From an uncultured Bacteroidaceae bacterium (GTDB lineage Bacteria; Bacteroidota; Bacteroidia; Bacteroidales; Bacteroidaceae), in assembly GCA_905235305.1 (NCBI GenBank), contig CAJOLC010000026.1, positions 1 through 40,451 of the forward strand: a stretch of DNA of 40,451 bases, read 5' to 3'. A program made the position numbers and the translations under genes. A model generated the notes under the pieces. It had not been told where the DNA came from, ran no database searches, and was given only the letters and a program-made list of their open reading frames with translations. This document shows, in pieces, positions 8,395-34,877 of the stretch; the stretch's first letter is position 1, and each line of letters starts with the position of its first letter.

Positions 8395-8526
8395 GGCACG
8401 CCCGGTTCGCCGACCAGGCACGTTATGTTTGCCAACGCGACGTGTCAAGTTTGCAATCGCGACACGTCATGTTTGAAATCGGGACACGTCGCGTTTTTCG
8501 ATGCGACTCATCGTCTGAAAATGAAG
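8395..8526. repeat. 22-bp-period degenerate array A, rplL-rpoB spacer
   Basis: Six consecutive 22-bp units start at 8395, 8417, 8439, 8461, 8483 and 8505. Their first eight bases are GGCACGCC, GGCACGTT, GACGTGTC, GACACGTC, GACACGTC and GACTCATC. The second half of units 2-4 contains a T-rich block (TGTTTGCCA, AGTTTGCAA, TGTTTGAAA). No indel breaks the register. The array lies between the rpoB start (8359) and the rplL stop (8632), inside the predicted operon, so it is probably transcribed as rpoB 5' leader. Small hairpins at 8586-8598 and near 8613 lie between array and rplL. Function unknown. Confidence 0.8.
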
Positions 8527-8631
8527 GACTTTTCTTTGGTGCGGAAACTCACGAAGAAGTTTATAGACACAAAAAGGCAAAGAACCCTCTACCAGAGGAT
8601 CCTTTACCTAAGTCCCTTTTCAGGGTGAGTA

Positions 8632-9006
8632 TTACTTCAGTTCAACCTCAGCGCCAGCTTCCTCGAGGGTCTTCTTCAGAGCCTCTGCGTCAGCCTTAGG
8701 CATGCCTTCCTTCAGCACGCTGGGAGCGCCGTCAACCATTTCCTTTGCTTCCTTCAGGCCAAGACCGCAAGCTTCCTTGACAGCCTTAACGACCTGCAGC
8801 TTAGCAGCACCTGCACTCTTGAGGACAACGTCGAAGTCGGTCTTCTCCTCAGCGGCAGCAGCACCACCTTCAGCACCAGCAGCAACAACAACAGCAGCTG
8901 CTGCAGGCTCGATGCCATAGGTTTCCTTAAGTTCGTTCTTAAGATCAATTACTTCCTGTACTGTGAGCGCTACGAGCTCAGCAGCAATAGCCTTAATATC
9001 AGCCAT
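8632..9006 (-). CDS. rplL: 50S ribosomal protein L7/L12
   Basis: 124 residues with the L12 plan: an N-terminal dimerisation helix region (residues 1-33), an Ala/Gly-rich flexible hinge (about 34-55), and the C-terminal factor-binding domain. The last contains the conserved stretch [20 protein letters not shown]. It forms the ribosomal stalk with L10 and recruits translational GTPases. It follows rplJ by 38 nt in the rplKAJL order. Confidence 0.97.
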
Positions 9007-9044
9007 TTCTTTAATGTATTTAAGTTGTTATTATACTTGGTTAA

Positions 9045-9614
9045 TTACTCAGCAGCTGCTTCGGCTGCAGGTTCTGTTGCAGCTTCAGCCGCAGGCTCAG
9101 CTGCAACTTCGGCAGCGGGCTCAGCAGCCTTTGCCTCCTCCTTGTTCTCCAAAGCGCTCAAGACGTTCATAATCGGAGATTCGAGAGCAGCAATTACATC
9201 TGCAATCAGTTCATTCTTACTCTTCAGAGCAACGAGAGTGTTCAACTGGTCAGCACCTACATAGATGGCACCCTCGGCATAAGCAGCCTTGAATGCGGGC
9301 TTCTCCTGTTTCTTGCTGTTCAGTTCCTTAATGAGCTTCGCAGGAGCATTCGCAGTCTCCGTAAGGAGCAATGCCGTTGTTCCAACCAATACAGGCTTCA
9401 GCTCATCGAAGTTCTCTTCCGCATTCTCAAGAGCCTTGTTCATCAGAGTGTTCTTCACAACGACCATCTTCAGGCCATTCTCGAAACACTTGCGACGCAA
9501 GCTGCTCGTGCTGGCAGCATTCATGCCCTCAACATCTACGAGGTAGAAGTGAGGATACTGCTTCAACAGTTCGCCAAGTTGCGCGATAACTGCAATTTTA
9601 TCTTCCTTTCTCAT
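9045..9614 (-). CDS. rplJ: 50S ribosomal protein L10 with a long Ala/Glu/Pro tail
   Basis: 189 residues. Residues 1 to about 155 are a normal L10, the base of the L12 stalk (start MRKEDKIAVIAQL; VVVKNTLMNKA near 51-61). After residue 157 comes a low-complexity tail built on AAEPAAE-type repeats (about 159-189), beyond the L12-binding helices. The tail is encoded by imperfect GC-rich repeats at 9048-9140. Extended acidic, Ala-rich tails vary among Bacteroidetes L10 proteins; their role is not established. The gene is 15 nt from rplA and upstream of rplL. Confidence 0.96.
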   Translation of the reverse strand: MRKEDKIAVIAQLGELLKQYPHFYLVDVEGMNAASTSSLRRKCFENGLKMVVVKNTLMNKALENAEENFDELKPVLVGTTALLLTETANAPAKLIKELNSKKQEKPAFKAAYAEGAIYVGADQLNTLVALKSKNELIADVIAALESPIMNVLSALENKEEAKAAEPAAEVAAEPAAEAATEPAAEAAAE

Positions 9615-9629
9615 GATGATACAGCTTTA

Positions 9630-10328
9630 TTAGATTTCCTCAGTAGCCTTAGGATCAACCTTGATGCCGCGGCTCATTGTACTTGAAAGATAAATACTCT
9701 TGATGTATGTACCCTTAGCAGCAGCAGGCTTCAACTTGTTGATAGTCGAGATGAACTCCTTTGCATTCTGAGCGATCATGTCAGCAGTGAAAGACACTTT
9801 GCCGATTGAGGTATGCACGATACCAGTCTTGTCGACCTTGAAGTCAATCTTACCCTGCTTCACTTCACGGACAGCCTTGGCTACATCCATAGTAACAGTT
9901 CCACTCTTGGGGTTCGGCATCAAGCCACGAGGACCGAGCACACGACCCAGCGCACCAATCTTACCCATAATGGAGGGCATCGTGATGATGACGTCGATAT
10001 CAGTCCATCCACCCTTAATCTTCTCGATATACTCATCGAGACCTACATAGTCAGCGCCTGCTTCCTTTGCAGCAGCTTCAGCATCCGGTGTGCAGAGGCA
10101 GAGCACCCGAGTCACCTTACCCGTACCGTTGGGCAGTGACACGACGCCACGAACCATCTGGTTTGCCTTCCTGGGGTCAACGCCCAGACGCACATCAATG
10201 TCAACAGAAGCATCGAACTTGGTGGTGGTAATCTCCTTCACCAAGGCAGCAGCTTCCTTCAAGGTGTATGCCTTCCCTGCTTCAATCTTATCAGCTACCA
10301 ACTTCTGATTCTTTGTCAGTTTACTCAT
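9630..10328 (-). CDS. rplA: 50S ribosomal protein L1
   Basis: 232 residues, full length. Typical L1 features are [20 protein letters not shown] near the N-terminus, [12 protein letters not shown] in the middle and [20 protein letters not shown] at the C-terminus. It binds 23S rRNA at the E-site stalk and, in other bacteria, represses its own operon mRNA. It lies 17 nt downstream of rplK. Confidence 0.97.
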
Positions 10329-10345
10329 CTTAATTGAAGTTTAAA

Positions 10346-10786
10346 TTATTCACCAGGGAACTCACCCTTGACAGTGATACCCATACTTCTGGCTGTACCT
10401 GCAACCAATTTCATTGCAGACTCAACTGTAAAGCAATTCAAGTCAGGCATCTTGTCCTGAGCAATGGTGCGAACCTGATCCCAAGTAATCTGGGCAACCT
10501 TCTTACGGTTGGGCTCTGCACTACCGCCCTTGATCTTAGCAGCCTCCATCAACTGTACTGCCACAGGAGGAGTCTTGACAACGAAGTCATAAGACTTGTC
10601 CGTATAGTAAGTGATGACGACAGGCAGCACCTTGCCGGCACGATCCTGTGTTCTGGCGTTGAATGCTTTGCAGAAATCCATGATGTTGATTCCCTTAGAA
10701 CCCAAAGCGGGACCTACTGGGGGAGATGGATTTGCAGCGCCTCCTTTAATCTGTAATTTGATTAATCCAGCAACTTCTTTAGCCAT
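10346..10786 (-). CDS. rplK: 50S ribosomal protein L11
   Basis: 146 residues, full length. The N-terminal domain carries the proline-rich [18 protein letters not shown] motif and [12 protein letters not shown]; the C-terminal rRNA-binding domain ends with [15 protein letters not shown]. It forms the GTPase-associated centre with 23S rRNA and is needed for stringent-response sensing by RelA/SpoT-type enzymes. It follows nusG by 58 nt. Confidence 0.97.
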
Positions 10787-10844
10787 TTGATTATACTTTA
10801 TTATTAATGATAATGTGAGGCCTCAGGGCACGTAACAAAATACC

Positions 10845-11405
10845 CTAAAGCTTCTCGACTTGAGTAAAACCAAGCTCTACGGGCGTCTTGCGACCGAAGA
10901 TCTTGACCATAACCTTCAGCTTCTTCTTTTCGCTATTGACCTCCTCGACAGTGGCATCAAATCCGCTGAACGGACCGTCGGTTACCTTAACGCTCTCACC
11001 AACCTCGAAGGAGATGAAAACATCTTCGGGCATTTCTGCCATTTCGTCGATGGTGCCAAGCATCTGGCTGACCTCAGCAGGTCTCAGAGGCATGGGTTTG
11101 TTGCTTGAACGGGAATCATTAAGGAAGCCCATCACGTTAGACACTTCGCGCAAACGAGCTTGAGTCTCTCCCACCAGCTCTGCTTCAACGAAGACATAAC
11201 CGGGGTAGCGATTCTTCTCTTTGATTTTGCGCTTGCCTGCGGAGACAGTGACAACCTTCTCTGTAGGAATCAGCACTTGAGAGACATGTTTGGCGAAATC
11301 GGGCACATTGTTCATCAGCGCCTCGATTACCTCCTTTACCTTGCCCTCTTTACCACTGATAGCACGCAACACGTACCATTTCATTCCAGCGTCCGCCATT
11401 TCCAA
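10845..11405 (-). CDS. nusG: Transcription termination/antitermination factor NusG
   Basis: 186 residues. The NGN domain starts at [17 protein letters not shown] and contains [13 protein letters not shown]. The C-terminal KOW domain includes [18 protein letters not shown] and ends with LGFTQVEKL. It couples RNA polymerase to Rho and the ribosome. Start choice: the Met at 11405 is used, but the third-codon Met (11399) would give the more usual N-terminus. It lies 9 nt after secE. Confidence 0.96.
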
Positions 11406-11414
11406 AGAAATACT

Positions 11415-11612
11415 TTATCGCAGCAAACCATAGATGACTTCCATTCCAGACTGGAACACGAAGTCCATAACGAAAACTACCAGTGCTATGCATAGGGAAG
11501 CAGTTAATACTACAACAGCACTGTTCATAAGCTCTGAACGTGTAGGCCAAGTTGTTTGGTTTACCAGTTCGTTGTATGATTCTTTACAATACTTCTTAAT
11601 CTTTTCGAACAT
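11415..11612 (-). CDS. secE: Preprotein translocase subunit SecE
   Basis: 65 residues with one transmembrane helix (about 29-55) preceded by the SecE signature YNELVNQTTWPTRSEL. It stabilises the SecY channel in the inner membrane. The start codon lies only 16 nt after the end of tRNA-Trp, so tRNA processing probably generates the 5' end of the secE-nusG message. This is the conserved bacterial secE-nusG pair. Confidence 0.96.
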   Translation of the reverse strand: MFEKIKKYCKESYNELVNQTTWPTRSELMNSAVVVLTASLCIALVVFVMDFVFQSGMEVIYGLLR

Positions 11613-11628
11613 AACTTTGACAGTTTAG

Positions 11629-11701
11629 CACGGGAAGTAAGACTCGAACTCACGACCCTCGGTTTTGGAGACCGATGCTCTACCAACTGAGCTATTCCCG
11701 T
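11629..11701 (-). tRNA. tRNA-Trp (CCA)
   Basis: 73 nt. The minus strand folds as a cloverleaf: acceptor ACGGGAA with TTCCCGT, anticodon loop CTCCAAA (anticodon CCA), T-loop GTTCGAGTC, and discriminator G73 as expected for tRNA-Trp. The CCA tail is not encoded. It lies between tuf and secE. Confidence 0.95.
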
Positions 11702-11704
11702 ATT

Positions 11705-11735
11705 TTGGGTGGGTAAACATTGTCCACCCACCCAA
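11705..11735. other. Inverted repeat between tuf and tRNA-Trp
   Basis: TTGGGTGGGT and ACCCACCCAA form a perfect 10-bp stem with an 11-nt loop, starting 4 nt from the tRNA-Trp 5' end. On the minus strand it is followed by AAAATA rather than a T run, so it is a poor intrinsic terminator in that direction. It may mark an RNA-processing point separating tuf mRNA from the tRNA-secE transcript. Confidence 0.65.
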
Positions 11736-11771
11736 TTTATCGTCTTTGAGTATTACCGAAAAAGCGGTTTC

Positions 11772-12953
11772 TTAGTCGAATACTTCAGTAATCTGACCAG
11801 AGCCTACGGTGCGACCACCCTCACGGATAGCGAAGCGGAGACCTACGTTCAGAGCCACAGCGTAGATGAGCTCAACCTTAATCTCTACGTTATCACCAGG
11901 CATTACCATCTCGATTCCATCGGGAAGATGAATCTCACCGGTGCAGTCCATGGTGCGCAGGTAGAACTGAGGACGATACTTGTTGCCGAACGGAGTGTGA
12001 CGGCCACCTTCTTCCTTCTTCAGTACATAGATAGAAGCCTTGAAGCCCTTGTGAGGAGTGATTGCACCCGGGTGGGTAATAACCATACCACGCTTAACTT
12101 CCTGCTTGTCGATACCACGGAGGAGCAGACCTACGTTATCGCCAGCCTCACCTTCGTCGAGAATCTTGCGGAACATCTCGACACCAGTGATGACAGACTT
12201 CTTGTCCTCACCAAGACCGAGGATCTGAACTTCGTCACCAACCTTAACGACACCAGTCTCGATACGACCGGTAGCAACGGTACCACGACCTGTGATAGAG
12301 AAGACGTCCTCGACGGGCATCAAGAATGCCTTATCCTTGTCGCGGACGGGCTCCTGAATCCAGTTGTCACAAGCGTCCATGAGTTCCATGACCTTAGCTT
12401 CCCATTCGGGCACACCGTTCAGGGCGCCGAGAGCAGAGCCACGGATGAATGGAGTATCCTCCTCGAACTCATACTGAGCGAGAAGTTCCTGCATTTCCAT
12501 CTCAACGAGTTCGAGCATTTCCTCGTCCTCAACCATGTCACACTTGTTCAGGAACACAACCAGACGGGGAACGTTCACCTGACGAGCGAGCAGGATGTGC
12601 TCACGAGTCTGAGGCATAGGACCGTCAGTTGCAGCAACTACGATGATAGCACCGTCCATCTGAGCAGCACCAGTTACCATGTTCTTCACATAGTCGGCGT
12701 GACCCGGGCAGTCCACGTGAGCGTAGTGACGCTTTGCAGTCTCGTACTCAACGTGAGCAGTGTTGATGGTGATACCGCGCTCCTTCTCTTCGGGAGCATT
12801 GTCAATCTGGTCGAAAGACTTAATCTCAGACAGACCCTGCTTTGCCAATACTGTGGTGATAGCAGCAGTCAGAGTAGTCTTACCGTGGTCGACATGACCA
12901 ATAGTACCAATGTTCACATGAGGTTTGGTACGTTCGAATTTTTCTTTTGCCAT
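11772..12953 (-). CDS. tuf: Elongation factor Tu
   Basis: 393 residues, full length. It has the G1 P-loop GHVDHGKT (19-26), switch [14 protein letters not shown], and NKCDMV for guanine recognition, followed by domains 2 and 3. The C-terminus is SGQITEVFD. It delivers aminoacyl-tRNA to the ribosome. It sits between a four-tRNA cluster and tRNA-Trp, the ancient tufB arrangement, and is probably co-transcribed with the tRNAs from the promoter at 13470-13500. Confidence 0.98.
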
Positions 12954-13013
12954 AACGTTGTTTTTACTATATTAAATAATGTAGTTAATTGTTTTCTTTT
13001 TCATCTTTGCTTG

Positions 13014-13085
<72 letters not shown>

Positions 13086-13115
13086 AACGCGTGTTATTAC
13101 ATCTCACTTATAGAG

Positions 13116-13188
13116 AGCGGAAGACGGGGCTCAAACCCGCGACCCCCAGCTTGGAAGGCTAGTGCTCTATCGACTGAGCTACTTCCGC
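13116..13188 (-). tRNA. tRNA-Gly (TCC)
   Basis: 73 nt on the minus strand. Acceptor GCGGAAG pairs with CTTCCGC. The anticodon loop CTTCCAA gives anticodon TCC, the T-loop is GTTTGAGCC, and discriminator U73 is typical of bacterial tRNA-Gly. Confidence 0.95.
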
Positions 13189-13233
13189 ATTTTCTTGTGA
13201 AGACTGGTTCTCCACATTTCCTTCAGTAAGATG

Positions 13234-13316
13234 TGGGTGGTGATGGATTCGAACCACCGAAGGCGAAAGCCAGCAGATTTACAGTCTGCCCCATTTGGCC
13301 ACTCTGGTAACCACCC
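13234..13316 (-). tRNA. tRNA-Tyr (GTA)
   Basis: 83 nt class II tRNA on the minus strand with a long variable arm. Acceptor GGGTGGT pairs with ACCACCC. The anticodon loop CTGTAAA gives anticodon GTA, the T-loop is GTTCGAATC, and the discriminator is A. Confidence 0.95.
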
Positions 13317-13353
13317 TTTCTTTTTCTATTCAGCCACCACTCTTGGTTTGCTG

Positions 13354-13427
13354 AGCCTCTTGTCGGATTCGAACCAACGACCCCGAGATTACAAATCACG
13401 TGCTCTGGCCAACTGAGCTAAAGAGGC
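13354..13427 (-). tRNA. tRNA-Thr (TGT)
   Basis: 74 nt on the minus strand. Acceptor GCCTCTT pairs with AAGAGGC. The anticodon loop TTTGTAA gives anticodon TGT, the T-loop is GTTCGAATC, and the discriminator is T. First gene of the tRNA-tuf unit. Confidence 0.95.
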
Positions 13428-13434
13428 GATTTAC

Positions 13435-13469
13435 AGCCAACAGGCGTACGCAAGACGCCTAATCGGCTG
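13435..13469 (-). other. Hairpin in the leader of the tRNA-tuf operon
   Basis: CAGCC and CGGCTG at the base and GGCGT and ACGCC at the top form an interrupted stem. It lies between the promoter's -7 box and the first tRNA, so it is in the 5' leader of the precursor and may serve tRNA maturation or transcript stability. Confidence 0.55.
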
Positions 13470-13500
13470 CAAAATTACATATATTTTTTGAACCAGCAAA
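13470..13500 (-). promoter_or_regulatory. Promoter of the tRNA-tuf operon
   Basis: On the minus strand TTTG (13497-13500), exactly 19 nt, TAATTTTG (13470-13477). It fits the Bacteroidetes sigma-ABfr consensus and precedes tRNA-Thr(TGT) by about 42 nt. Confidence 0.8.
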
Positions 13501-13516
13501 AGGTTTGGTCGTTTTT

Positions 13517-13816
13517 TTAACGATTTTTTTGCTTTTCCTTGTATTTGGAAGCTTGCCGCAGCAAAGAATCCACTGTTTGGTCGATTGCTTCTTCGAATGT
13601 GTTGCATGTTTCCTGAGCGAACAGTTCGGTGCCTGGCAGTATTGCTCTCAGTGCAGCTTCCTTGTTCATTGCGGTCTCAGGTTTTACAACCTTAAGTGAC
13701 ACCTCTATCCTTCCTATTTCATCGTTGAACTTTGCGAGTTTGGAGAGTTTCTTCTCTATGAATTTCTCCAACTTCTCTGTTGCCTCAAAGTGAATTGCCT
13801 GAATTTTAATTTCCAT
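13517..13816 (-). CDS. hpf: Ribosome hibernation promoting factor, short type (HPF/RaiA family)
   Basis: 99 residues with the S30AE/HPF fold pattern: MEIKIQAIHFEATEKLEKFIEKKL, then GRIEVSLKVVKP, and a C-terminal helix with EEAIDQTVDSLLRQ. Short HPFs bind the decoding centre and promote ribosome dimerisation or inactivation in stationary phase. Its start overlaps the 3' end of xerC by 11 nt, so the two are translationally linked. Confidence 0.9.
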   Translation of the reverse strand: MEIKIQAIHFEATEKLEKFIEKKLSKLAKFNDEIGRIEVSLKVVKPETAMNKEAALRAILPGTELFAQETCNTFEEAIDQTVDSLLRQASKYKEKQKNR

Positions 13817-14726: not shown

Positions 14727-14750
14727 GCACTTCGCTTACTGTTTCTTCTG

Positions 14751-14781
14751 CGAAGGTAATGTTTTTTTCTGACAATCCAAA
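14751..14781 (-). promoter_or_regulatory. Promoter of xerC-hpf
   Basis: On the minus strand TTTG (14778-14781), 19 nt, TACCTTCG (14751-14758). The -7 box differs at one position from TAnnTTTG. It lies 25 nt before the xerC start. Confidence 0.65.
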
Positions 14782-14808
14782 GAGAAAAGTCAAAAATTTA
14801 AGGACTTT

Positions 14809-15000
14809 TTAATCTTCTACGCGGTGGAGCTTCTGTACATAGACAGCGCGTTCCATGGCGAGACGCTTCAGAACGGAGGGCTTGTCGAACTGCTGACGTG
14901 CGCGGAGTTCTTTCACTACGCCTGTCTTTTCGAACTTACGCTTGAACTTCTTCAATGCCCTTTCGATGTTCTCACCTTCTTTTACGGGTACTACAATCAT
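14809..15000 (-). CDS. rpsU: 30S ribosomal protein S21
   Basis: 63 residues, basic, start MIVVPVKEGENIERALKKFK, with the S21 helix-forming KRKFEKTGVVKELRARQQF. S21 is needed for initiation; in Bacteroidetes it belongs to the group of proteins around the anti-Shine-Dalgarno end of 16S rRNA. It is monocistronic, with its own promoter. A weak hairpin (AAAAGTC/GACTTTT, 14785-14809) touches the stop codon and may act as terminator. Confidence 0.95.
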   Translation of the reverse strand: MIVVPVKEGENIERALKKFKRKFEKTGVVKELRARQQFDKPSVLKRLAMERAVYVQKLHRVED

Positions 15001-15058
15001 TGTTTCTTTTTTTGTTGTTTTTAATAGGTTTGTTTGCTTATATAGCTAAAATGCGGCG

Positions 15059-15089: not shown

Positions 15090-15129
15090 GCTTTTTTAGG
15101 AAAAAATTACACTAAGTATGTGCAGACGT

Positions 15130-15239
15130 CACTTGTCGCCCCTGAAAACATGACATGTCATGTCGGGAAAGATGACGTGTCGAGACAACAAATCAGACAC
15201 GTCGCGCTTGCAATGGCGACGTGTCTGATTTCGTATTGT
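15130..15239. repeat. 22-bp-period degenerate array B, rpsU-mdh spacer
   Basis: Five units start at 15130, 15152, 15174, 15196 and 15218, exactly 22 bp apart. The cores are CACTTGTC, GACATGTC, GACGTGTC, GACACGTC and GACGTGTC. Only the core is strongly conserved; the 14-bp remainders differ. It lies upstream of the rpsU promoter and downstream of the mdh stop codon. The rest of the 304-nt spacer shows only an AT-rich stretch near 15278-15293. Confidence 0.85.
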
Positions 15240-16338: not shown

Positions 16339-16370
16339 CAAAGTTAATGATTTTTCGTCAAGCCTCAAAA
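16339..16370 (-). promoter_or_regulatory. Promoter of mdh
   Basis: On the minus strand TTTTG (16366-16370), 19 nt, TAACTTTG (16339-16346): a perfect -7 consensus, about 42 nt before the chosen start codon. Confidence 0.85.
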
Positions 16371-16403
16371 CTTTTTGCATAAAAAAACACTACCTTCTGC
16401 CAA

Positions 16404-16583
16404 AACAGACTGAAAGTCTGACGGGCGCCCATTTATGGGCTGGCCGACAGCCCGGAAGGGACCGCCCAATCTTCAGGTCGCCGGCAGGATGGCGGGATGA
16501 TTTCCGCGGGCCGACGACGGCTCTGGAACGTGCCGAAAGTCGGAGTCGACTTGCGACTGTCATTTGCAGAAGAGGCCCTGGTC
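16404..16583. other. Non-coding stretch with small inverted repeats
   Basis: GC-rich spacer upstream of the mdh promoter. It holds several short palindromes, including GCCCATTTATGGGC (about 16427-16440) and GGCTGGCCGACAGCC (about 16438-16452). Open frames here are short and look like chance products of high GC. No promoter, tRNA or gene is recognised. Confidence 0.4.
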
Positions 16584-17045
16584 GACGAGTCTTCCGGCGG
16601 AAAATCTTTTACAAAATTCGCCTGCGGGAAACGTCTCGCCGTGCCATGCGACGAGTGAGTCATCCGAACGGCACGTGAGAACTTTGCCAACGACACGCGT
16701 GGTCTTTGGAAAAACCTCTGGTGAAGTTGGACGGCCTTTCACGTCGATTTTCGTCCAGGATTGACTGAATGTTTGCAGCACGACAGCCAGAACTGATACT
16801 TTCGTGACATCACGATGAAAACCGCCTCGTTGCAACCCTCTGATTTTCAGTAGTGACTTGAATAGAGACATTTTCTCGGGACGGGTGGCACCAAGTGCCG
16901 CAGAAGGTAAAAAAACGGGAAAATGAAGGGACGGAGAGGAAAAATCTTGACAAAAGCGACCGGACATCACCCGCCAGGGCACACGTCCGACGACCCGTTC
17001 CGACGTTTTGACAAAGTCCGCCTGAGACAAACTGCCGGTACAAAA
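16584..17045. repeat. Decayed 22-bp-period array F in the mdh/nagB divergent spacer
   Basis: The 700-nt stretch between the mdh and nagB promoters has no convincing gene. In 22-bp register from 16584, core-like octamers recur: GACGAGTC (16584), GAAACGTC (16628), GACGAGTG (16650), CACGTGAG (16672), CACGCGTG (16694), TTCACGTC (16738). Further ones occur in the same register at 16958 (GACCGGAC), 16980 (CACACGTC) and 17002 (GACGTTTT). The unit at 16672 continues with AACTTTGCCAA, close to AACTTTGCAAG in array D. Many intervening units have no recognisable core, so this is a weaker call than the other arrays. Confidence 0.45.
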
Positions 17046-18441: not shown

Positions 18442-18516
18442 GGTGCCTATAGTTCAGTTGGTTAGAGCGTCAGATTGTGGTTCTGAATGTCGTCGGTTCG
18501 AGTCCGACTAGGCACC
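18442..18516 (+). tRNA. tRNA-His (GTG)
   Basis: 75 nt including the G(-1) typical of tRNA-His, which faces C73. Acceptor GTGCCTA pairs with TAGGCAC. The anticodon loop TTGTGGT gives anticodon GTG, and the T-loop is GTTCGAGTC. The CCA end is not fully encoded. Confidence 0.95.
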
Positions 18517-22113: not shown

Positions 22114-22155
22114 GCAGTCGACGCCGCTCACCCTTCCTGAGGGGAAGGGGAACTT

Positions 22156-22221
22156 CACTTGTCAAAACATAAAACTTCACCTGTCAAAACATAAAACTTC
22201 ACCTGTCAAAACATAAAACAC
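22156..22221. repeat. 22-bp tandem repeat array E, 3' of the first FAS1 gene
   Basis: Three nearly identical 22-bp units start at 22156, 22178 and 22200 (cores CACTTGTC, CACCTGTC, CACCTGTC), each continuing AAAACATAAAA. It is the most homogeneous of the 22-bp arrays. It lies between the stop codon of the FAS1 gene and its terminator hairpin, so it should be transcribed as 3' UTR. Confidence 0.9.
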
Positions 22222-22260
22222 ACCCTGTTAAGTTGACCGACTTAAGAGGGTGTGTTTTTT
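22217..22260 (+). terminator. Terminator of the first FAS1 gene
   Basis: AACACACCCTGTTAAG pairs with CTTAAGAGGGTGTGTT, followed by TTTTATT. The left arm overlaps the end of the 22-bp array. Confidence 0.88.
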
Positions 22261-22285
22261 ATTGTAACGGTAGGGATGGGTCGAC

Positions 22286-23991: not shown

Positions 23992-24130
23992 CTCGTCCCA
24001 CTTATTTTTTCATGTTTAGGCACACTTTTCATCGCCTGGCGCCACCCATCCACCTGCTTATCTTCTTTTGTTGGTGTCCGGCATAAAACGGCAGGAAGCC
24101 CCCTTTGTCTATAATGTGACGTTTTTCACC

Positions 24131-24240
24131 CTACAGTCGCACTGCCAATAGGGACGTGTCGCTCTGCCCGTAGGGACGCGTCGCATTGACCATAGGGACG
24201 CGTCCCTACTTGTGGCCCGACACGTGTAAACGCACGGGGT
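24131..24240. repeat. 22-bp-period degenerate array C, PH gene/sigma gene spacer
   Basis: Five units start at 24131, 24153, 24175, 24197 and 24219. The cores are CTACAGTC, GACGTGTC, GACGCGTC, GACGCGTC and GACACGTG. Units 1-3 also share the ending TAGG or ATAGG, so GGGACG-like 6-mers recur. It lies in the divergent spacer between the PH-domain gene promoter and the sigma factor promoter. The rest of this 490-nt spacer shows no other structure that I recognise. Confidence 0.85.
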
Positions 24241-24320
24241 ATAGTCAAGGATGGAACTTATTTACCGGACACCTCTGATTTCCTTTCATCTCCTGTTTCC
24301 TTATTATTGGAGAAAAACAC

Positions 24321-26902: not shown

Positions 26903-26915
26903 TTTCCTTATTGAC

Positions 26916-28172
26916 TCAATTTACTGCCACTTTCTTTCCACCTACGAGATAGATACCTCTGGGCAAACCCTTGAGCGTTGTCGCTTGTCTGCGAACGATC
27001 CTACCGTCAACCGTATAGACGTCAAAGGACTTATCTTCGTCGTAGATAGGAGCAATCGCGTCCCAGTCATCCACGACCTCAAACGCGTATGAGTATGTCT
27101 CTCCGAAGATTTCCGACCAGCCCTTTGCCCTGAAGTAGAGCGTGTGCATACCTACAGACAAGTTCTCCATGTCAACCTCCAGATTGACAATCCCCGGGCA
27201 TACACCGGCGGCTGTCACAGGCTCCTGTTCGTCAATCCAGTATTCATAGCTGATGAGTTCGTCGTCGAAGATGCCGTTGTTGATGTAGAACGGTATCTGC
27301 TTCCATGCACCGCCTTCGCCTTGCTCGTTCAAGGTTCGGTAGTTGAAGAAGTGCAGGCCGTAGCTCATCTGGCTGATGTCGATGTCGAACTTCACTTCGC
27401 CACCTTCGAAAGGCATACGGTGCGGCTGTCGGTCGTAGCCAGTCACCCAGTACTCAATCCATGCACCTTCATCGGAGCATGGCCAGCCTTCGGGAATCAT
27501 GAAAGCGATGCTTTTCCATGCTCCTCCTTCGCCTCTTGAATTGACAGTGCGATAGTTGAAGAAGTGCATCCCTGAAGAGAAGCGGCTGGCATCGATGCTG
27601 AGTGTTACGGCAGTGCCTGCGTATGGTTCTCTGTGCGGCGTGCTGTCGTAGCCTGTCACCCAATACTCAATGAGTGCAGCGTCGTTTGTGGCAGGCCAGC
27701 ACTCGGGCACGAGGAATGGTATCACCTTCCATACGTCGCCTTCGCCTCTTTCGTTCAGGGTGCGATAGTTGAAGAAGTGCATCCCTGGCGAATAGTTGCT
27801 TGCGTCGATGTTGAGCGTGACGGCAGTGCCGGCATAGGATTGACGGTGCGGTTGCTTGTCATAGCCAGTCACCCAATACTCCACCATCGTGGCATCGTTT
27901 GTGCCGGGCCAGTACTCGGGCATGAGGAAAGCGATGCATCGCCACACGCCCTTCTCGCCGCTTTCGTTGTAAGGCAGGATGTTGAGGAAGTGCAGACCAG
28001 GCGAGAGGGAAGCGATGCCGTCAAACGTGAAGGTCTGTTCGCCGAGTATCAGGTCTGTCCACCTTGCTGTGCCTCGGTTGTTGTCTATCCATTGTTCACA
28101 GCGTATCTGTGCCGACGTTTGCATCCAGACGGCAGTCAAGGCCACGAACAATAATAAGAGTCGTCGTCTCAT
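26916..28172 (-). CDS. Secreted protein with tandem 71-residue repeats and a sorting-like C-terminus
   Basis: 418 residues with a Sec signal peptide (first 21, ending MQTSAQ). Five copies of a beta-rich module follow. Three central ones have a 71-residue period (IEYWVTGYD, TAVTL.IDAS, GMHFFNYRT.N..GEG.W, PE.WP). The first (CEQWIDNN) and last (SYEYWIDEQEPV) copies are more diverged. The C-terminal 40 residues (FDVYTVDGRIVRR, then GLPRGIYLVGGKKV) resemble the type IX secretion C-terminal domain or the related end motif of Bacteroidetes surface proteins. It starts 4 nt after the beta-helix gene in the same operon. Probably an adhesin- or binding-type surface protein; ligand unknown. Confidence 0.8.
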   Translation of the reverse strand: MRRRLLLLFVALTAVWMQTSAQIRCEQWIDNNRGTARWTDLILGEQTFTFDGIASLSPGLHFLNILPYNESGEKGVWRCIAFLMPEYWPGTNDATMVEYWVTGYDKQPHRQSYAGTAVTLNIDASNYSPGMHFFNYRTLNERGEGDVWKVIPFLVPECWPATNDAALIEYWVTGYDSTPHREPYAGTAVTLSIDASRFSSGMHFFNYRTVNSRGEGGAWKSIAFMIPEGWPCSDEGAWIEYWVTGYDRQPHRMPFEGGEVKFDIDISQMSYGLHFFNYRTLNEQGEGGAWKQIPFYINNGIFDDELISYEYWIDEQEPVTAAGVCPGIVNLEVDMENLSVGMHTLYFRAKGWSEIFGETYSYAFEVVDDWDAIAPIYDEDKSFDVYTVDGRIVRRQATTLKGLPRGIYLVGGKKVAVN

Positions 28173-28176
28173 AGTT

Positions 28177-29161: not shown

Positions 29162-29194
29162 TATGAATTCTCCTTTTGCCCTCCAGCACCTCAA

Positions 29195-29504
29195 AAGGCG
29201 TTAAGTTAATATACGAGAAGCGCGGCACTGATATAACACTTCTTCAATCGGAGGTCGTGAGAAATACCTTGCAAGTAGAAATGTATTCAGGCCACGCAAT
29301 ACGCGCGAACCATCATACTCTCTTGCTTGCTTTGGAAGTTTCTCACGTTTCCGATTCAAGGCGAGCATAACGCTTCGTTATGAAATATGTTTCTTTCTAT
29401 ATGTATCTTCTTAATTATATCCCTTTCTATTACATTATATATATATATATTACAATCTTACTATGCCGTGAAACTATTGAGGAAGTATGCTGCGAGACGC
29501 TTTC
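29195..29504. other. Gene-free spacer between the beta-helix gene and V-ATPase subunit B
   Basis: No gene is visible. The spacer contains a pair of imperfect inverted repeats (29246-29265 and 29338-29356, sharing TTTCTCACG and CCGATT), a small perfect hairpin CATAACG-CTT-CGTTATG (29367-29383), and an AT-rich tract with alternating TA near 29434-29452. V-ATPase subunit D would be expected here in other Bacteroidales but is absent. Confidence 0.6.
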
Positions 29505-30827
29505 TTATTCTTTCCAGTAGATGTCGGTGAACTCTTTCTTGATGTTCACCTCTTCGAGCTTGAAGTACTTGCGGAAGAGGGTCCACGTCACGTCGAGCAT
29601 CTCCTCGGTGTTGAGGTTGACATCGATGGCAAGGAGCTTGCCGGCATAGTCCTTGGCAAAGTCGAGACAACGGTTGTCGTAGTCAGTGAGGTCGAAGCCG
29701 TTCTCCAGCTTCGTCTTGGCGTTGGCAGCGTCGGCATAGAGTCGGATGGCAGCGTTCATGACTTGGCTGTGGTCCTTCCTGGTCTTCTTGCCTGCAACAA
29801 GTTGCTTCAGAGACAGCGAACGGAACGGATCGACGATGACCTTGCCGATGTCACTGTCGCGACGGAGGTAGAGCTGACCTTCGGTGATGTAGCCCGTATT
29901 GTCGGGGACAGCATGAGTAATGTCGCCTCCCGAGAGGGTTGTCACGGCGATGATGGTGATTGAGCCGCCGCCTGCGCTCTCGGGGAACTGCACGGCCTTC
30001 TCGTAAATCTTCGCCAGGTCGGAGTACAACGAACCGGGCATGGAGTCCTTCGACGGGATTTGGTCCATGCGGTTGCTGACGATGGAGAGTGAGTCGGCAT
30101 ACGAAGTCATGTCCGTCAGCAGCACAAGAACGGTCTCGTGCTTCTCCACAGCGAAGTATTCGGCAGCCGTCAGCGCCATGTCAGGGATGAGGAGTCGCTC
30201 CACGGCAGGGTCTTCAGTGGTGTTGATGAAGGAGATGATGCGGTCGAGAGCACCGGCACCTGCGAAGGTGTTGCGGAAGAAGTAGTAGTCGTCGTTGGTC
30301 ATACCCATGCCGCCAAGGATAATCTTGTCGCACTTGGCACGCATGGCAACCATCGCCATCACTTCGTTGAAGGGCTGGTCAGGGTCGGCAAAGAAGGGAA
30401 TCTTCTGTCCAGAGACGAGCGTATTGTTGAGGTCGATGCCTGCGATACCTGTGGCGATAAGCTCGCTGGGCTGCTTGCGGCGGACAGGGTTCACAGAGGG
30501 TCCGCCAATCTCTACCTCCTTGCCTTCCACTTCCGGACCGCCGTCGATGGGATGACCGTAAGCGTTGAAGAAGCGTCCGGCCAGCTGGTCGCTGACCTTG
30601 AGAGACGGGCTCTTGCCCAGGAACACTACCTCAGCATTGGTGGGAATACCGCCTGTGCCTTCGAAGACCTGCAGTGTCACGTCGTCGCCAATTATCTTTA
30701 CTACCTGAGCAAGTTTGCCGTCGATAGTTGCCAACTCATTATAACCGACGCCTTTCGCCTTGAGCGAACAGGTGGCCTTCGTTATCTGGCTAATCTTTGT
30801 ATATACTTTCTGAAATGCTGTACTCAT
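29505..30827 (-). CDS. atpB: V-type ATP synthase subunit B
   Basis: 440 residues, full length for the bacterial/archaeal V/A-type B subunit (NtpB). Typical stretches are LDLNNTLVSGQKIPFFAD (as GIAGIDLNNTLVSGQKIPFF), MALTAAEYFAVEKHETVLVLLTDM, and ATLSGGDITHAVPDNTGYITEG (here VTTLSGGDITHAVPD). It is the non-catalytic nucleotide-binding partner of subunit A in the rotary head that couples ATP to Na+ or H+ movement. It starts 5 nt after subunit A. In other Bacteroidales D, I and K follow; here none does. Confidence 0.96.
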   Translation of the reverse strand: MSTAFQKVYTKISQITKATCSLKAKGVGYNELATIDGKLAQVVKIIGDDVTLQVFEGTGGIPTNAEVVFLGKSPSLKVSDQLAGRFFNAYGHPIDGGPEVEGKEVEIGGPSVNPVRRKQPSELIATGIAGIDLNNTLVSGQKIPFFADPDQPFNEVMAMVAMRAKCDKIILGGMGMTNDDYYFFRNTFAGAGALDRIISFINTTEDPAVERLLIPDMALTAAEYFAVEKHETVLVLLTDMTSYADSLSIVSNRMDQIPSKDSMPGSLYSDLAKIYEKAVQFPESAGGGSITIIAVTTLSGGDITHAVPDNTGYITEGQLYLRRDSDIGKVIVDPFRSLSLKQLVAGKKTRKDHSQVMNAAIRLYADAANAKTKLENGFDLTDYDNRCLDFAKDYAGKLLAIDVNLNTEEMLDVTWTLFRKYFKLEEVNIKKEFTDIYWKE

Positions 30828-30832
30828 CTTTC

Positions 30833-32578
30833 TTATGAATTAAGCAAGTTCTCAACTTGCGAAATGTAGTCGTAGTATTGTTCGCTCTTGTAGGTGGAGT
30901 AGTTCATCTGCTTGCAGAGGTTAATGAGCTTCTTGAAGAAGTCGGTGACGTCGAGGAAGGTCTCGAACTTGTAGTCTTCCTTCTCGCAAATCCTCGTAAC
31001 GAGGTTGAGTATCTCTTCCTGACGTTCGAGTGGCGTGACGGCATCAACCTCGTCGAAGGCATCCTGCTGGAGGATGACGTAGTCAATCACTTCGGACTTC
31101 CAGAAGACGATGTGGTAATCGACGGGTACACCGTCGTCGCCCAGAATGTTTATCTGCTCGGCAATCTCCTTGCCTCGCTGCATACGGGTCTTCAAGGCCA
31201 GCACCTTCGGAATCCATTCCTCGTTGATGTGGCTCTTGATGTACTCTGCGAACTCGGGGTACTCGAGGTACTTCGAATAAGAGTCAATGGGGTTGACGGC
31301 AGGATAACGCTTCTTGTCGGCACGGTCCTGCTCGAGGGCATAGAAGCAACGGGCAACCTTCTTGGTGTTCTCGGTTACAGGCTCCTTCAAGTTACCGCCG
31401 GCAGGCGACACAGTTCCGAGGAAAGTGACGGAGCCTACCTCGCCGTTGTTGAGATAGACATAGCCGGCGCGTCCGTAGAAGTTCGAGATGAGGGCACCGA
31501 GGTCCATTGGGAAGGCATCGGGGCCGGGCAGTTCCTCCATGCGGTTCGACATCTCGCGCAGAGCCTGTGCCCAACGGGAGGTAGAGTCGGCCATGAGGAG
31601 GACGCGGAGTCCCATCGAGCGGTAGTACTCGGCCATCGTCATGGCTGTATAGACGGAAGCCTCGCGGGCTGCGACAGGCATGTTGGAGGTGTTGGCTATG
31701 ATGATTGTGCGCTCCATGAGCTTGCGGCCAGTGTGCGGGTCGACCAGTTCGGGGAACTCCGTAAAGATTTCCACGACCTCGTTGGCACGTTCGCCGCAGG
31801 CAGCGATAATCACGATGTCGGCCTCGGCCTGCTTCGATATGGCGTGCTGGAGCACAGTCTTGCCCGTACCGAAGGGACCGGGGATGAATCCTGTGCCGCC
31901 TTCCACGATGGGGTTGAACGTGTCGATAGTGCGGACGCCTGTCTCGAGCAGTTTGAATGGACGCGGCTTCTCTTTGTAGTTGGTCATGGCGAACTTCACC
32001 GGCCAGTGCTGCACCATGTCAACCTTGATGTCGTTGCCCTGCTCGTCGGTCAGGACGGCGATGGTGTCGTGTATCTTGTACTGGCCTTTCTTTGCGATGG
32101 ACTTGACGGTTGCAGTGCCCTTCATCTGGAAAGGTGCCATGATCTTCAGGGGCTGATGGTTCTCTTCTACCTTGCCGAGCCAGTCGCTGGCCTGCACCTT
32201 GTCACCTTCCTTGGCGAGGGGTTCGAAGTCCCAGAGGCGTTCGCCATCAAGGGCCTCTGTATATTCGCCACGCTTCAGGAAGACACCCTCCATCTTGTCG
32301 AGGTCGTTCTGAAGTCCGTCGTAATTATGGCTGAGCATACCCGGGCCGAGTTGTATCTCGAGCATGTGTCCCGTGAACTCGGCCTCGGCACCGACCTTCA
32401 GACCGCGTGTGCTTTCGAAGACCTGCACATAAACGTCTCGTCCGACCACCTTGATGACCTCTGCCATCAATCGGTCGCCGCCTGTCGTGATGTAGCATAT
32501 CTCACCCTGGAGCACCGGACCATCCACTTGGAGCGTGACCATATTGGAGACTACGCCACTAACAATTCCTTTTGTCAT
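30833..32578 (-). CDS. atpA: V-type ATP synthase subunit A (catalytic)
   Basis: 581 residues. Walker A GPFGTGKT (234-241) and Walker B region LRVLLMADSTSRWAQALREM. The non-homologous region typical of V/A-type A subunits follows the N-terminal barrel (about 115-190). EELPGPDAFPMDL and FYGRAGYVYLNNGEVGSVTFLG also match. It is the catalytic ATPase subunit of the soluble V1 head. It starts 39 nt after the DUF2764 gene. Confidence 0.97.
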   Translation of the reverse strand: MTKGIVSGVVSNMVTLQVDGPVLQGEICYITTGGDRLMAEVIKVVGRDVYVQVFESTRGLKVGAEAEFTGHMLEIQLGPGMLSHNYDGLQNDLDKMEGVFLKRGEYTEALDGERLWDFEPLAKEGDKVQASDWLGKVEENHQPLKIMAPFQMKGTATVKSIAKKGQYKIHDTIAVLTDEQGNDIKVDMVQHWPVKFAMTNYKEKPRPFKLLETGVRTIDTFNPIVEGGTGFIPGPFGTGKTVLQHAISKQAEADIVIIAACGERANEVVEIFTEFPELVDPHTGRKLMERTIIIANTSNMPVAAREASVYTAMTMAEYYRSMGLRVLLMADSTSRWAQALREMSNRMEELPGPDAFPMDLGALISNFYGRAGYVYLNNGEVGSVTFLGTVSPAGGNLKEPVTENTKKVARCFYALEQDRADKKRYPAVNPIDSYSKYLEYPEFAEYIKSHINEEWIPKVLALKTRMQRGKEIAEQINILGDDGVPVDYHIVFWKSEVIDYVILQQDAFDEVDAVTPLERQEEILNLVTRICEKEDYKFETFLDVTDFFKKLINLCKQMNYSTYKSEQYYDYISQVENLLNS

Positions 32579-32617
32579 ATTTAGCTTGCTGTGTTTTGTT
32601 TAATCTTTCGTAATTCG

Positions 32618-33490
32618 TTATTTAGCTTTACCTTTCTGGGCAAGTCCCGGAGCGACGAATTCGGCGGGCACCTGAGCCTCGCTGCGAAGGTCGTCTATTA
32701 TCTTCTGGAAGGTTTCCTTGCCTCGTTCGACATCGAGCTTTGCCCAACGCTGCTGCATTTCAAGCTTGCAGATGTAGGCAAAGACAGCCGTTATATCGAA
32801 GGGTTCGAAGAATGTCTGCTCGTCGAGCCATATCCACTTGAAGGCATCTATCATCTTTTCCTTGCGGACAGGATCCTTCTCGTCCACGATCTTCATGAGT
32901 TGCGGGATATAGTCGAGCTGGTGGGAGAGGTCGAAGTCCTTTGTCTTGTTCTCGCGTATCATCTCCTGCACCTCACCCTCTCCCTTGATGAAGTCGCCTA
33001 TGCTCCAGCCCTGGCCGCGTGCGAGCATGGCTGTGAGGATGTTGGTGATGTCGAGGTTGAGCTTGTACCATCGGCGCATCAACTCGTTGGGACAGGTGCG
33101 GATGGCGTAGTCGAGGAACTGATAAGCCATCTCGTCCTCGGGGAAGTAGCCTGCCTTGTCCTTGTTGAAAGCATATTCGCGGGCGAAGATGCTCATGAAG
33201 GCTGGATAGCGGTGCACGTTGAAGTTGAGTTCCGTGGCGCTGGTGATGAGGTCGCGCAGCTGCTCGAGCGAGAAGTTGCCCCACTGGTCGATGTCTGCAT
33301 CGGGATTCTTAAGGAGCTTGACCAGGTTGACGCAATCGAAGCGGAGGAAGAAGTAGAAGAGCAGCTTCTTGTCCCTCGGCGTAAGAACCTCCTCGCATTG
33401 CTCCCGCATGTCCTCAAGGTTCATCCCTGGTTTCGCGTCCTGCAGGTCGATGTCCGGCAAGCCGGCTATCATGCAATAGTAATTGGCCAT
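32618..33490 (-). CDS. DUF2764 protein of the V-ATPase operon
   Basis: 290 residues, start MANYYCMIAGLPDIDLQDAK, no signal peptide or transmembrane segment. It matches the DUF2764 family found between E and A in Bacteroidetes V-ATPase operons. The helical, charged sequence and the YYMIAGLP-type start recall V-ATPase subunit C, so it may fill that central-stalk role; this is inference from position. The last residues are Lys-rich (GLAQKGKAK). Confidence 0.85.
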   Translation of the reverse strand: MANYYCMIAGLPDIDLQDAKPGMNLEDMREQCEEVLTPRDKKLLFYFFLRFDCVNLVKLLKNPDADIDQWGNFSLEQLRDLITSATELNFNVHRYPAFMSIFAREYAFNKDKAGYFPEDEMAYQFLDYAIRTCPNELMRRWYKLNLDITNILTAMLARGQGWSIGDFIKGEGEVQEMIRENKTKDFDLSHQLDYIPQLMKIVDEKDPVRKEKMIDAFKWIWLDEQTFFEPFDITAVFAYICKLEMQQRWAKLDVERGKETFQKIIDDLRSEAQVPAEFVAPGLAQKGKAK

Positions 33491-33497
33491 GTTCTAT

Positions 33498-33623
33498 TTA
33501 ATTCATAATTGTTAATTCATAATTCATAATTATTTCTACTCGCTCAATGCGCTGACTTCCGAAGGATGCTTTCTCAGGGGCTTCAAGGCGAGCCAAATTA
33601 TGAATAGTGAATTATGAATTATG
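33498..33623. repeat. AT-rich inverted-repeat element inside the V-ATPase operon
   Basis: The spacer between subunit E and DUF2764 is flanked by two arms built from AATTCATAATT-type words. The left arm (33498-33533) and the right arm (33595-33623, AATTATGAAT/ATGAATTATG) are roughly reverse complements. Between them lie about 60 bp with a short CTCGC/GCGAG pair. The whole could fold as one long hairpin, like a small non-autonomous palindromic insertion (MITE-like) or an mRNA stability element. No target duplication is evident. Confidence 0.6.
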
Positions 33624-33626
33624 CAT

Positions 33627-34213
33627 TCAGAATAACATCTCGACGAGCTGCGGACGCAGGAAGTTCTTAAAGTAGGTCTCGAACTCTTCCTTGCCGAAGT
33701 TCACCTTGTAGCTGCCGTCGGCGGAGCTATCGTGAGCAGGGTGTCCTTGCCATTCACCTTGTTGATGGTGACGCCCTTGTCGAGGAGAGCTTTGGCTTTG
33801 GCTGCGAAATATGCTTTCAGGCTATCGGCTTCGCTACTGGAAATGACTGGGGGTTCGCCGTCCTGCCACTTCTCTGCCAGAGCCACGGCGAACTGTCCGA
33901 GGAAGTCGGAACTTGCGGCCAGGCCGTTGACGGCTTCCTTCACGACGCCATCGGTCAGCACATTTGTCACTTCGCTCTTGAGTGCGCTGAGTGCCTGACC
34001 TGTGTACATCTTGAGTTCGTTGCGGGTGTTGGCATCTGTTTCGGCAGCTTTCTTCTGTGCCTGCTCTGCAATTTCCTGAGCCTGCTGGCGTGCTTCCTGC
34101 AGAATCCTCTCTGCCTGCTGCTTAGCCTCCTCAATGAGGCGGTCGGCTTCTGCCTGTCCCTTTTCAACGCCTTCGCGCAGGATTTTCTCGGTGAGTTCTT
34201 GTATCTTTTCCAT
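33627..34213 (-). pseudogene. atpE: V-type ATP synthase subunit E, frameshifted near the C-terminus
   Basis: Peripheral stalk subunit. The N-terminal two-thirds is the expected long coiled coil (ADRLIEEAKQQAERILQEAR). At about 33720 the frame breaks: the uninterrupted frame ends in LLTIAPPTAATR with a stop at 33701. In the next frame the normal subunit E ending continues (ADGSYKVNFGKEEFE, then TYFKNFLRPQLVEMLF) to a TGA at 33627-33629. Inserting one base (making CCGGCC) restores 195 residues, the usual length. The conserved downstream ending argues for a recent change or a sequencing error. First gene of the operon. Confidence 0.88.
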
Positions 34214-34248
34214 TATTATCTTAATATGATTTTATTCGAACAACGGCA

Positions 34249-34278
34249 CGAAGGTACAAAAATCCTTTGGGATTTCAA
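34249..34278 (-). promoter_or_regulatory. Promoter of the V-ATPase operon
   Basis: On the minus strand TTG (34276-34278), 19 nt, TACCTTCG (34249-34256), the same -7 variant as at xerC. It lies 36 nt before the subunit E start. Confidence 0.7.
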
Positions 34279-34701
34279 TGCATATCTGCAAAAAAAATGC
34301 CCTATCCGTCATTATCTGAACGGAAAGGACTGCTGGGAGTTGTTATTTAACGTGAGTTCGATGGAATTAACGGCCTAATGCCCATTCGTCTGACTCGCTT
34401 TAATGTGTGAAAATCGTGGTTTTTCTCCTGCCCCTTGCTCCTTGCTCCTTGCCACTTACCCCTTTGTCAAAATGTAAGCATTTCGGCTGTTTCGCTTACA
34501 CGCGACTTTTCCCGAGACACGTCAGAATCGCTTTTCTTGCCCCCTGCCCTACTTTTCGACCCCCGAGCAAAAATAAGGGCTTAAATCGCGGGCAATTTCG
34601 CAATCCCCTATGCCACAGATTGTTGGAAGCATCACGGTGCGTCGGACTTTTTATCGCGATTCGTCTGATTGACAACTGCACATGGCAAAAACAGCCGTTT
34701 T
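34279..34701. other. Gene-free spacer between V-ATPase promoter and array D
   Basis: No convincing gene. There are pyrimidine-rich stretches near 34422-34465 (repeated CCTTGCTCCTTGC words) and one isolated array-type core GACACGTC at 34516, not in 22-bp register with array D. The open frames seen here have no recognisable protein character. Confidence 0.45.
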
Positions 34702-34877
34702 GACACGAAATTGCACACTTTCTGACGTGAAGTTTTCACCAAGTTCACATGAGCATTTTTCAAACGCGACACGTGAACTTTGCAAGCGCGACACGTGAAC
34801 TTTTGAAAGACCTCACGTCGAGTCGGCAAAATCGACGTGAGAAGCGCTCTTTTTCGACACTTTTCAGTGTGTGCAAT
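34702..34877. repeat. 22-bp-period degenerate array D, upstream of the V-ATPase operon
   Basis: Eight units start at 34702, 34724, 34746, 34768, 34790, 34812, 34834 and 34856 without a break in register. The cores are GACACGAA, GACGTGAA, CACATGAG, GACACGTG, GACACGTG, CTCACGTC, GACGTGAG and GACACTTT. A T-rich block about 10-12 bp after the core start is common (AACTTTGCAAG, AACTTTTGAAA, CATTTTTCAAA). It is the longest array in the window. It lies between the GH29 stop (35004) and the V-ATPase promoter (34278), about 420 bp from the latter. Confidence 0.85.

Follow-up and report, generated by a model that had tools for sequence, protein, structure and literature searches.

Intergenic DNA of an uncultured Bacteroidaceae bacterium carries tandem arrays with an exact 22-bp period, five of which lie in a 40,451-nucleotide contig (contig CAJOLC010000026.1 of assembly GCA_905235305.1), referred to here as the window. 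An earlier note, made from the sequence of the window alone, had described these arrays as a family built around a GAC-NN-GTC dyad core. The arrays are real and well beyond chance, and GAC-NN-GTC is just one flavour among many 22-bp unit families, most of them palindromic. They combine a fixed period and dyad symmetry with dispersal, differ between species by whole units, change at an ordinary substitution rate and include copies with ends like those of an IS4-type insertion sequence of sister species. We consider them probably to be dispersed noncoding minisatellites of 22-bp near-palindromes that, at least in part, form the cores of elements resembling miniature inverted-repeat transposable elements (MITEs).

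The window is contig 26 of the host draft (G000; 2.48 Mb in 89 contigs, 88% complete). Pairs of GAC-RY-GTC cores were searched for across G000, with the reversed pattern as a control. There were 169 pairs at exactly 22 bp and 1 pair of the reversed pattern; when spacings of 19 to 25 bp were allowed, there were still 169 pairs, all at exactly 22 bp, and the control gave 2. A 412-kb sample of G000 (20 stretches, 49.6 to 59 kb intergenic) was then characterized with genes called by a simple in-house caller. It comprised contigs 1 to 4 whole and most of contig 5, which came first in the match list, and parts of contigs 6, 8, and 11, which contain matches; because stretches were picked for matches, array density in the sample is biased upwards. 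Cores numbered 64 in 59 kb of intergenic DNA and 32 in 353 kb of coding DNA. Core pairs numbered 44 and 2, respectively, so the statement that no array lies inside a gene is close to the truth by these gene calls, though not strictly so (2 of 46 pairs). All 86 core pairs no more than 150 bp apart were separated by multiples of 22 bp.

Autocorrelation, compared over lags 15 to 70, gave the same period. Intergenic lag-22 identity in the G000 sample was 0.31 to 0.32 versus 0.26 in shuffles (z, 27 to 28), the excess over shuffled DNA on which the earlier note had staked its pattern. Echoes appeared at lags 44 and 66, and coding DNA of the sample had no lag-22 peak. The top intergenic lag was 22 in all 19 pieces with enough intergenic DNA (21 pieces including the window), and the intergenic DNA of the window alone peaked at lag 22 (z, 8.2). 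A second class with period 21 was considered and rejected: at a low threshold only, it had 43 segments in G000 versus 86 for period 22, and at a strict threshold it nearly disappeared (9 arrays versus 132 over all sets).

To characterize the units themselves, a second, sequence-blind scan for 22-bp self-similarity was used. It recovered arrays at all five places that the earlier note had listed and revealed a family far wider than a single core. In G000, it found the GAC family, TTGAACATACATGTATGTTCAA / TTGCAGGTTCATGAATATTCAA units, GACACGTGAAC units, and others. The arrays of G012 and G024 consisted of GGTTAACC, CACGTG, CTGCAG, and TTAACGTG units, those of G075 of CCGCGTGCGG units, and those of G076 of AAGAGCCAGGCTCTTCGG units. 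G005 carried AAATCC..GGATTT and AACTTCTCTGCAGAAGTT units beside GAC units, once in one continuous register as judged by eye. The proposal that the core is a dyad was borne out and proved general over unrelated units: the circular consensus of each array was more symmetric than column shuffles in 93 of 132 arrays at a P value of ≤0.05 and in 75 of 132 at a P value of ≤0.01 (one of the 132 came from outgroup loci). The T-rich block noticed half a period from the core was confirmed as well and forms a second dyad, TTGSCAA. This dyad recurs across families; 34 of the 161 arrays from nine species contained it, versus about 3.4 expected.

The arrays extend to related genomes; the earlier note had named their absence from relatives as a refutation. 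Lag 22 was the top intergenic lag in G000, G005, G033, G027, G012, G013, G075, G076, and G024; it was not the top lag in G003 (where lag 21 was), G082, G074, or G036, nor in ten pooled outgroup loci. Single stretches were less uniform than those of G000, with top lag 22 in 9/10 for G005, 4/5 for G033, 2/2 for G027, 3/4 for G012, 2/3 for G024, 2/2 for G075, and 1/3 for G013. The stretches of G005, G033, and G027 and some of those of G012 and G013 were picked for matches; for G024 and G075, synteny or contig number determined the choice. Among other Bacteroidota, 2 of the 65 loci tested (of 80) had top lag 22, weakly. Of 139 genomes in the genus, 32 had the GAC pattern, a few of them in high numbers (169 pairs in G000, 87 in G139, 84 in G095, and 55 in G005); in a family sample in which the genus itself was counted, 17 of 201 genomes had it. 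Outside the genus, G170 alone in this family sample was rich in GAC pairs, with 43, all at 22 bp. G170 belongs to another genus and is a single 3.7-Mb contig; the pattern is therefore not an assembly artefact of one draft. Twelve G170 stretches, all picked for matches, peaked at lag 22 and contained additional families of palindromic 22-bp units. In these stretches, 21 of 57 cores lay inside called genes, and 5 of 31 pairs of cores no more than 150 bp apart were off the 22-bp register. The pattern is thus striking in several species of one genus and in at least one species of another. Spacings other than 22 bp were found in 2 of 55 pairs in G005 (the other 53 being at 22), 3 of 4 in G003 (at 21), 2 of 2 in G110 (at 23), and 4 of 4 in G178 (at 24 to 25), and in several single pairs of the family sample. 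At locus L140 of G003 (9310-9400), an array shifts from a 22- to a 21-bp step.

The same spacer can carry different units in different species. A search with rplL in 61 genomes of the genus gave 44 matches, and loci were obtained for 30. Among these, a 22-bp array was present in the rplL-rpoB spacer of all seven species whose RpoB N terminus is at least 93% identical to that of G000 (G000, G005, G012, G013, G024, G075, and G076). By eye, these seven arrays have about six different units, those of G012 and G024 being alike. The scan scored the array in six of the species; the G013 array was identified by eye, and its lag-22 value of 0.36 is hardly above the 0.22 to 0.35 of the 23 other loci, in which no such array was seen by eye. 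Likewise, the spacer at window position 22114-22285 holds different families in the window (AACTTCACCTGTCAAAACATAA) and G075 (CCGCGTGCGG), and that at 36417-36534 holds different families in G012 and G075 and none in the window. A sharp boundary between the G000 and G005 arrays was considered as proof of wholesale replacement; the argument was dropped because the two genomes differ by 9% in the DNA of the rpoB N terminus and their identical flank upstream is probably under constraint. Two other features of these spacers were observed. In L205 to L234, rplL is followed directly by a conserved hairpin and then a CTTTT(T)GYKTCT-like sequence (by eye), which may act as a terminator or attenuator ahead of rpoB, and the G082 spacer (L211) contains a long repeat (GGTTTTCCGGTATTCCG...) with a period other than 22 bp.

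Change over a short distance was followed between G012 and G024, which have a median identity of 96.7% over 87 reciprocal best proteins. The stretches taken share 41 spacers of at least 60 bp, from which poorly alignable ones were removed before counting. Substitutions affected 111 of 1,017 positions in arrays and 1,072 of 9,335 outside. Conserved array columns changed as often as variable ones (75/657 versus 66/525; Fisher P = 0.59), so no selection on the core was seen in this comparison, and column heterogeneity reached a P value of ≤0.05 in only 11 of 68 arrays. Among eight alignments, the length difference was exactly 22 bp in one and exactly 66 bp in another, and a third had the whole array in G012 and none in G024. 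Because of the ordinary substitution rate, the whole-unit differences, and the like rates of the columns, we conclude that over this distance the arrays behave as neutral DNA that is labile by whole units. The one- and three-unit differences, together with the arrays that are copies of dispersed elements (described below), speak against the earlier preference for selection on spacing over recent duplication. Small indels in arrays occurred at about half the outside rate (P = 0.002 to 0.09 over eight settings); this depletion was not counted as support for selection, because the arrays had been found through their period in a single genome, a bias that by itself would roughly halve the number expected. 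Outside arrays, there were about 0.11 indels per substitution. The GAC linkers of G000 (46 linkers in 18 arrays) had accumulated 98 or more substitutions without a single indel, against an expectation of 6 to 11 indels. Of the proposal that spacing is under selection while linkers vary, the exact register and the free linkers therefore hold in G000, and the selection was not seen between G012 and G024. The two results could agree if the 22-bp step served the propagation of an element and not the host or, alternatively, if mixed units went into the assembly of new arrays.

Several arrays lie inside repeated elements. Among 18 GAC arrays of G000 picked by eye on a right-end motif, 12 have a leader, a tail, or both in common with other copies (copies with both flanks are pooled in the 12), and 6 share neither. 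The best-kept copies have inverted ends ATTGGTGTCCGGTAAA...TTTACCGGACACCAAT. With up to two mismatches, the 15-base end occurred at 40 places in G000 and at none in the control. At least one end lay within two mismatches at 9 of the 18 arrays (a count without a control), and both ends lay within four mismatches at 3 of 18, versus 5 of 400 random intergenic places. The reading as elements is therefore secure for some arrays and an extrapolation for the others. Copies of 111 to 115 bp have the same ends and no array. Insertion sequences of 1,418 bp (G014) and 1,437 bp (G013) in sister species have 15-base ends that differ at 3 and 2 positions, respectively, and code for DUF4372 plus DDE_Tnp_1 transposases, which we take to be an IS4-type architecture. 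When the end was sought in a looser form, 29 of 37 genomes, other families among them, had it; the end alone is thus not specific to array-bearing species. Of 15 related elements inspected, 3 had exact 9-bp flanking repeats (read by eye), and none of these 3 carried an array. In G000, end sequences occurred near contig ends, which would fit unassembled element copies without proving anything. Two further families are dispersed as well. Of 23 sampled copies matching the CATG-family unit expression, 22 have exactly three units, and the copies occur in convergent, divergent, and codirectional spacers. In G170, all four aligned copies (L274, L275, L276, and L285) lie inside one dispersed repeat that is conserved on both sides and is no shorter than the 570-odd bp aligned.

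Arrays were present in 27 of 49 convergent, 77 of 217 codirectional, and 23 of 82 divergent spacers, at a median distance of 84 bp from gene 3′ ends and 228 bp from 5′ ends. This preference fits tolerated insertions and would also fit a function like that of repetitive extragenic palindromes (REP). Folding of 110 arrays of five species exceeded that of shuffles (species mean z scores, −3.4 to −4.5, versus −0.7 to −2.2 for other intergenic pieces), as expected from palindromic units. A transcribed RNA hairpin with compensatory changes was tried and rejected: in the GAC family of G000, G005, and G033, no arm covariation was found about the core or the linker center (z, −2.3 to 0.6). CRISPR (clustered regularly interspaced short palindromic repeats) was also rejected, since the 22-mers adjoin one another with no spacers between them and the arrays are scattered (no search for cas genes was made).

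Taken together, these data are most likely explained by a new form of MITE-like element that carries a minisatellite and has an unexplained fixed period. Such an element would consist of a leader, an array, a tail, and terminal inverted repeats resembling an insertion sequence family of the clade, and it would spread by copying of the element, presumably through the action of a transposase. Its array would gain and lose whole 22-bp units and would otherwise change as fast as neutral intergenic DNA, while slippage or template switching between dyads may homogenize arms and units. The palindromes and the 22-bp step, two helical turns, may be kept because each unit offers a dimeric protein a phased binding site or forms a DNA hairpin that propagation requires, with probably little effect on host fitness. 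Several observations weigh against this explanation. Both ends were recovered at just those 3 GAC arrays, and window arrays 8395 and 15121 have neither. No DUF4372 gene, and no autonomous transposase, was found in the 88%-complete G000 assembly. G005 has 55 pairs (spacings of 19 to 25 bp) and yet no end match at one mismatch; ends are clear for one family, the CATG family showing neither clear ends nor convincing target site duplications, and the G170 alignment stops short of the repeat ends. All seven close species retain an array in the rplL-rpoB spacer. Finally, a plain slippage satellite leaves unexplained both the recurrence of 22 bp and dyads in unrelated families and the lack of any indel among the linker substitutions.

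Other explanations account for some of these points. Machinery of the clade, cellular or element encoded, might make or keep dyads at two helical turns whatever their sequence, with places being rewritten by new families; we regard this as possible but not likely. Somewhat doubtful too is that the arrays are phased binding sites for a host nucleoid-type protein, with the spacing selected, the letters free, and the arrays turning over. The exact 22 bp in 169/169 pairs of G000 and 43/43 of G170, the indel-free linkers, the different units in one spacer of seven close species, and the TTGSCAA dyad common across families all argue for such sites. However, the indel deficit between G012 and G024 is explicable by ascertainment, conserved columns changed as freely as variable ones, one array was present or absent whole, and other spacings occur (2/55 in G005 and 3/4 in G003); moreover, no single protein fits several unrelated cores within one genome. 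An equally doubtful proposal is a neutral satellite, a single ancestral 22-bp minisatellite that spread long ago and evolved in concert, its period inherited and not maintained. Whole-unit differences, ordinary rates, and linker letters common to several families are consistent with it, but its register should have been broken by the expected indels in the sampled linkers, and dyads recur with different letters.

Transcribed hairpin arrays at mRNA 3′ ends or in leaders, which would act in stability or termination as REP sequences and bacterial interspersed mosaic elements (BIMEs) do, are unlikely. The folding, the excess in convergent spacers and near 3′ ends, and the position of one array between rplL and rpoB are what such hairpins would predict, whereas the GAC family lacks arm covariation, the window arrays have no Rfam match, and the substitution rate is ordinary. 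REP doublets forming hairpins (REPINs) mobilized by a Y1 transposase (REP-associated tyrosine transposase [RAYT]) are largely refuted and very improbable. The units are short, palindromic, and dispersed, and G000 has one Y1_Tnp gene, but this lone gene has no flanking arrays (within its 3.3-kb locus, the closest one found lies about 690 bp away, past another gene) and arrays are common throughout the genome. Promoter arrays with TTTG boxes were refuted. TTTG often falls inside the linker dyad, but it is not enriched, the arrays are far from gene 5′ ends, and the promoter consensus TTTG-N17-23-TAnnTTTG occurred 0 times in arrays (0.5 expected) and 0.64 times per kb in other intergenic DNA.

The features of the window are listed in the table below.

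Coordinates of the 22-bp arrays and associated elements in the window
Feature	Position	Strand	Remarks
22-bp array, GAC-RY-GTC flavour	8395..8513		3 intact cores; in 272-bp rplL-rpoB spacer
22-bp array	15121..15225		4 intact cores (GACATGTC, GACGTGTC, GACACGTC, GACGTGTC)
22-bp array, other unit AACTTCACCTGTCAAAACATAA	22151..22231		Without GAC-NN-GTC core; convergent spacer
22-bp array, GACGYGTC flavour	24136..24206		Core of MITE-like copy 24071-24275
MITE-like element around array 24136-24206	24071..24275	-	Flanks common to other copies
22-bp array, GACACGTGAAC flavour	34692..34818		
Possible second MITE-like element around array 34692-34818	34708..34879		Inverted ends
Weak, doubtful 22-bp segment	16651..16723		Score 11.3; inside probable sixth region of the earlier note

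The GAC-NN-GTC core that the earlier note attributed to all its arrays is replaced by AACTTCACCTGTCAAAACATAA in the third array and by GACACGTGAAC instead of GACACGTC in the fifth. The probable sixth array that it placed at 16584-17045 dissolved into weak segments, the one in the table and another at 16351-16410 (score 9.3). Array 15121-15225 had no counterpart in the orthologous spacer of G012 and G024. Both ends of element 24071-24275 lie within two mismatches of the 15-base inverted end TTGGTGTCCGGTAAA, and no clear target site duplication was found around it. The candidate element at 34708-34879 is described from this single copy; its ends, AAATTGCACAC (34708-34718) and GTGTGCAATTT (34869-34879), are each unique within the window. 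The surrounding spacer (34214-35003) measures 790 bp versus 136 to 159 bp in three relatives.

Among the genes of the window, the host RpoB (4550-8359, minus strand) was nearest, among the named records listed, to that of a goat rumen Bacteroidaceae draft (86%) and then to those of other Bacteroidales drafts, records of the host or of very close genomes perhaps having been excluded. What appears from position and length to be rpoC (228-4522, minus strand) is seemingly in two overlapping pieces, 228-1853 and 1730-4522, as after a frameshift (assembly error or real). The minus-strand gene at 26916-28124 contains about two copies of a tandem repeat of about 213 bp (27417-27994; 74 to 78% matches). 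An Rfam search of the window returned only six tRNA genes (11629-11701, four clustered at 13014-13427, and 18443-18516) and no match to the arrays.

REP/BIME sequences and REPINs of enterobacteria and pseudomonads are dispersed intergenic palindromes near gene 3′ ends. The present arrays differ from them in lacking a flanking RAYT gene and in their exact 22-bp tandem register. Plasmid iterons are direct repeats of about two helical turns that are bound in phase at one origin and are not dyadic; the arrays resemble them in repeat length but are dyadic and dispersed over the chromosome.

Our literature search, which covered few subscription papers, yielded no account of 22-bp palindromic arrays in this group and a single relative, BrickBuilt of Porphyromonas gingivalis. 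The suggestion that no described element has this pattern must accordingly be qualified, since BrickBuilt has a similar plan. In the portions of its description available to us, it is an intergenic MITE with a leader, spacerless 23-nucleotide tandem repeats, and a tail; its ends are like those of resident insertion sequences (IS5 type), and most copies lack one or both (PMC4596501). It has predicted stem-loops and a variable unit number and is given there as one sequence family in one species plus P. gulae (PMC4596501). The likeness lies in the element plan (a spacerless tandem minisatellite flanked by a leader and a tail, unit number variation, and predicted stem-loops) and, for part of the present arrays, may extend to insertion sequence-like ends and to a mostly intergenic position, the letters of the units being outside the comparison (PMC4596501). 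Unlike BrickBuilt as described in those portions, the present arrays have 22-bp units of many families, mostly palindromic, occur in several species of one genus and in another genus, and have an IS4-type end in one family (PMC4596501). P. gingivalis W83 also has 41-, 23-, and 22-nucleotide tandem repeats; the last, in another Bacteroidales species, are likened to the present arrays by length alone, and the available portions describe no palindromy for them (PMC4596501).

In nine species measured, arrays accounted for about 7 to 15% of the sampled intergenic DNA, except in G013 (1.2%), some of the stretches having been picked for matches. If the arrays are selfish, they would be a large, fast-turning MITE-like class able to confuse annotation, typing, and assembly. 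If a protein or copying by a 22-base ruler keeps the period, they would instead show that bacterial intergenic DNA follows a rule that is independent of sequence and can be measured. A convenient place for testing is the rplL-rpoB spacer, which carries different arrays across seven close species.

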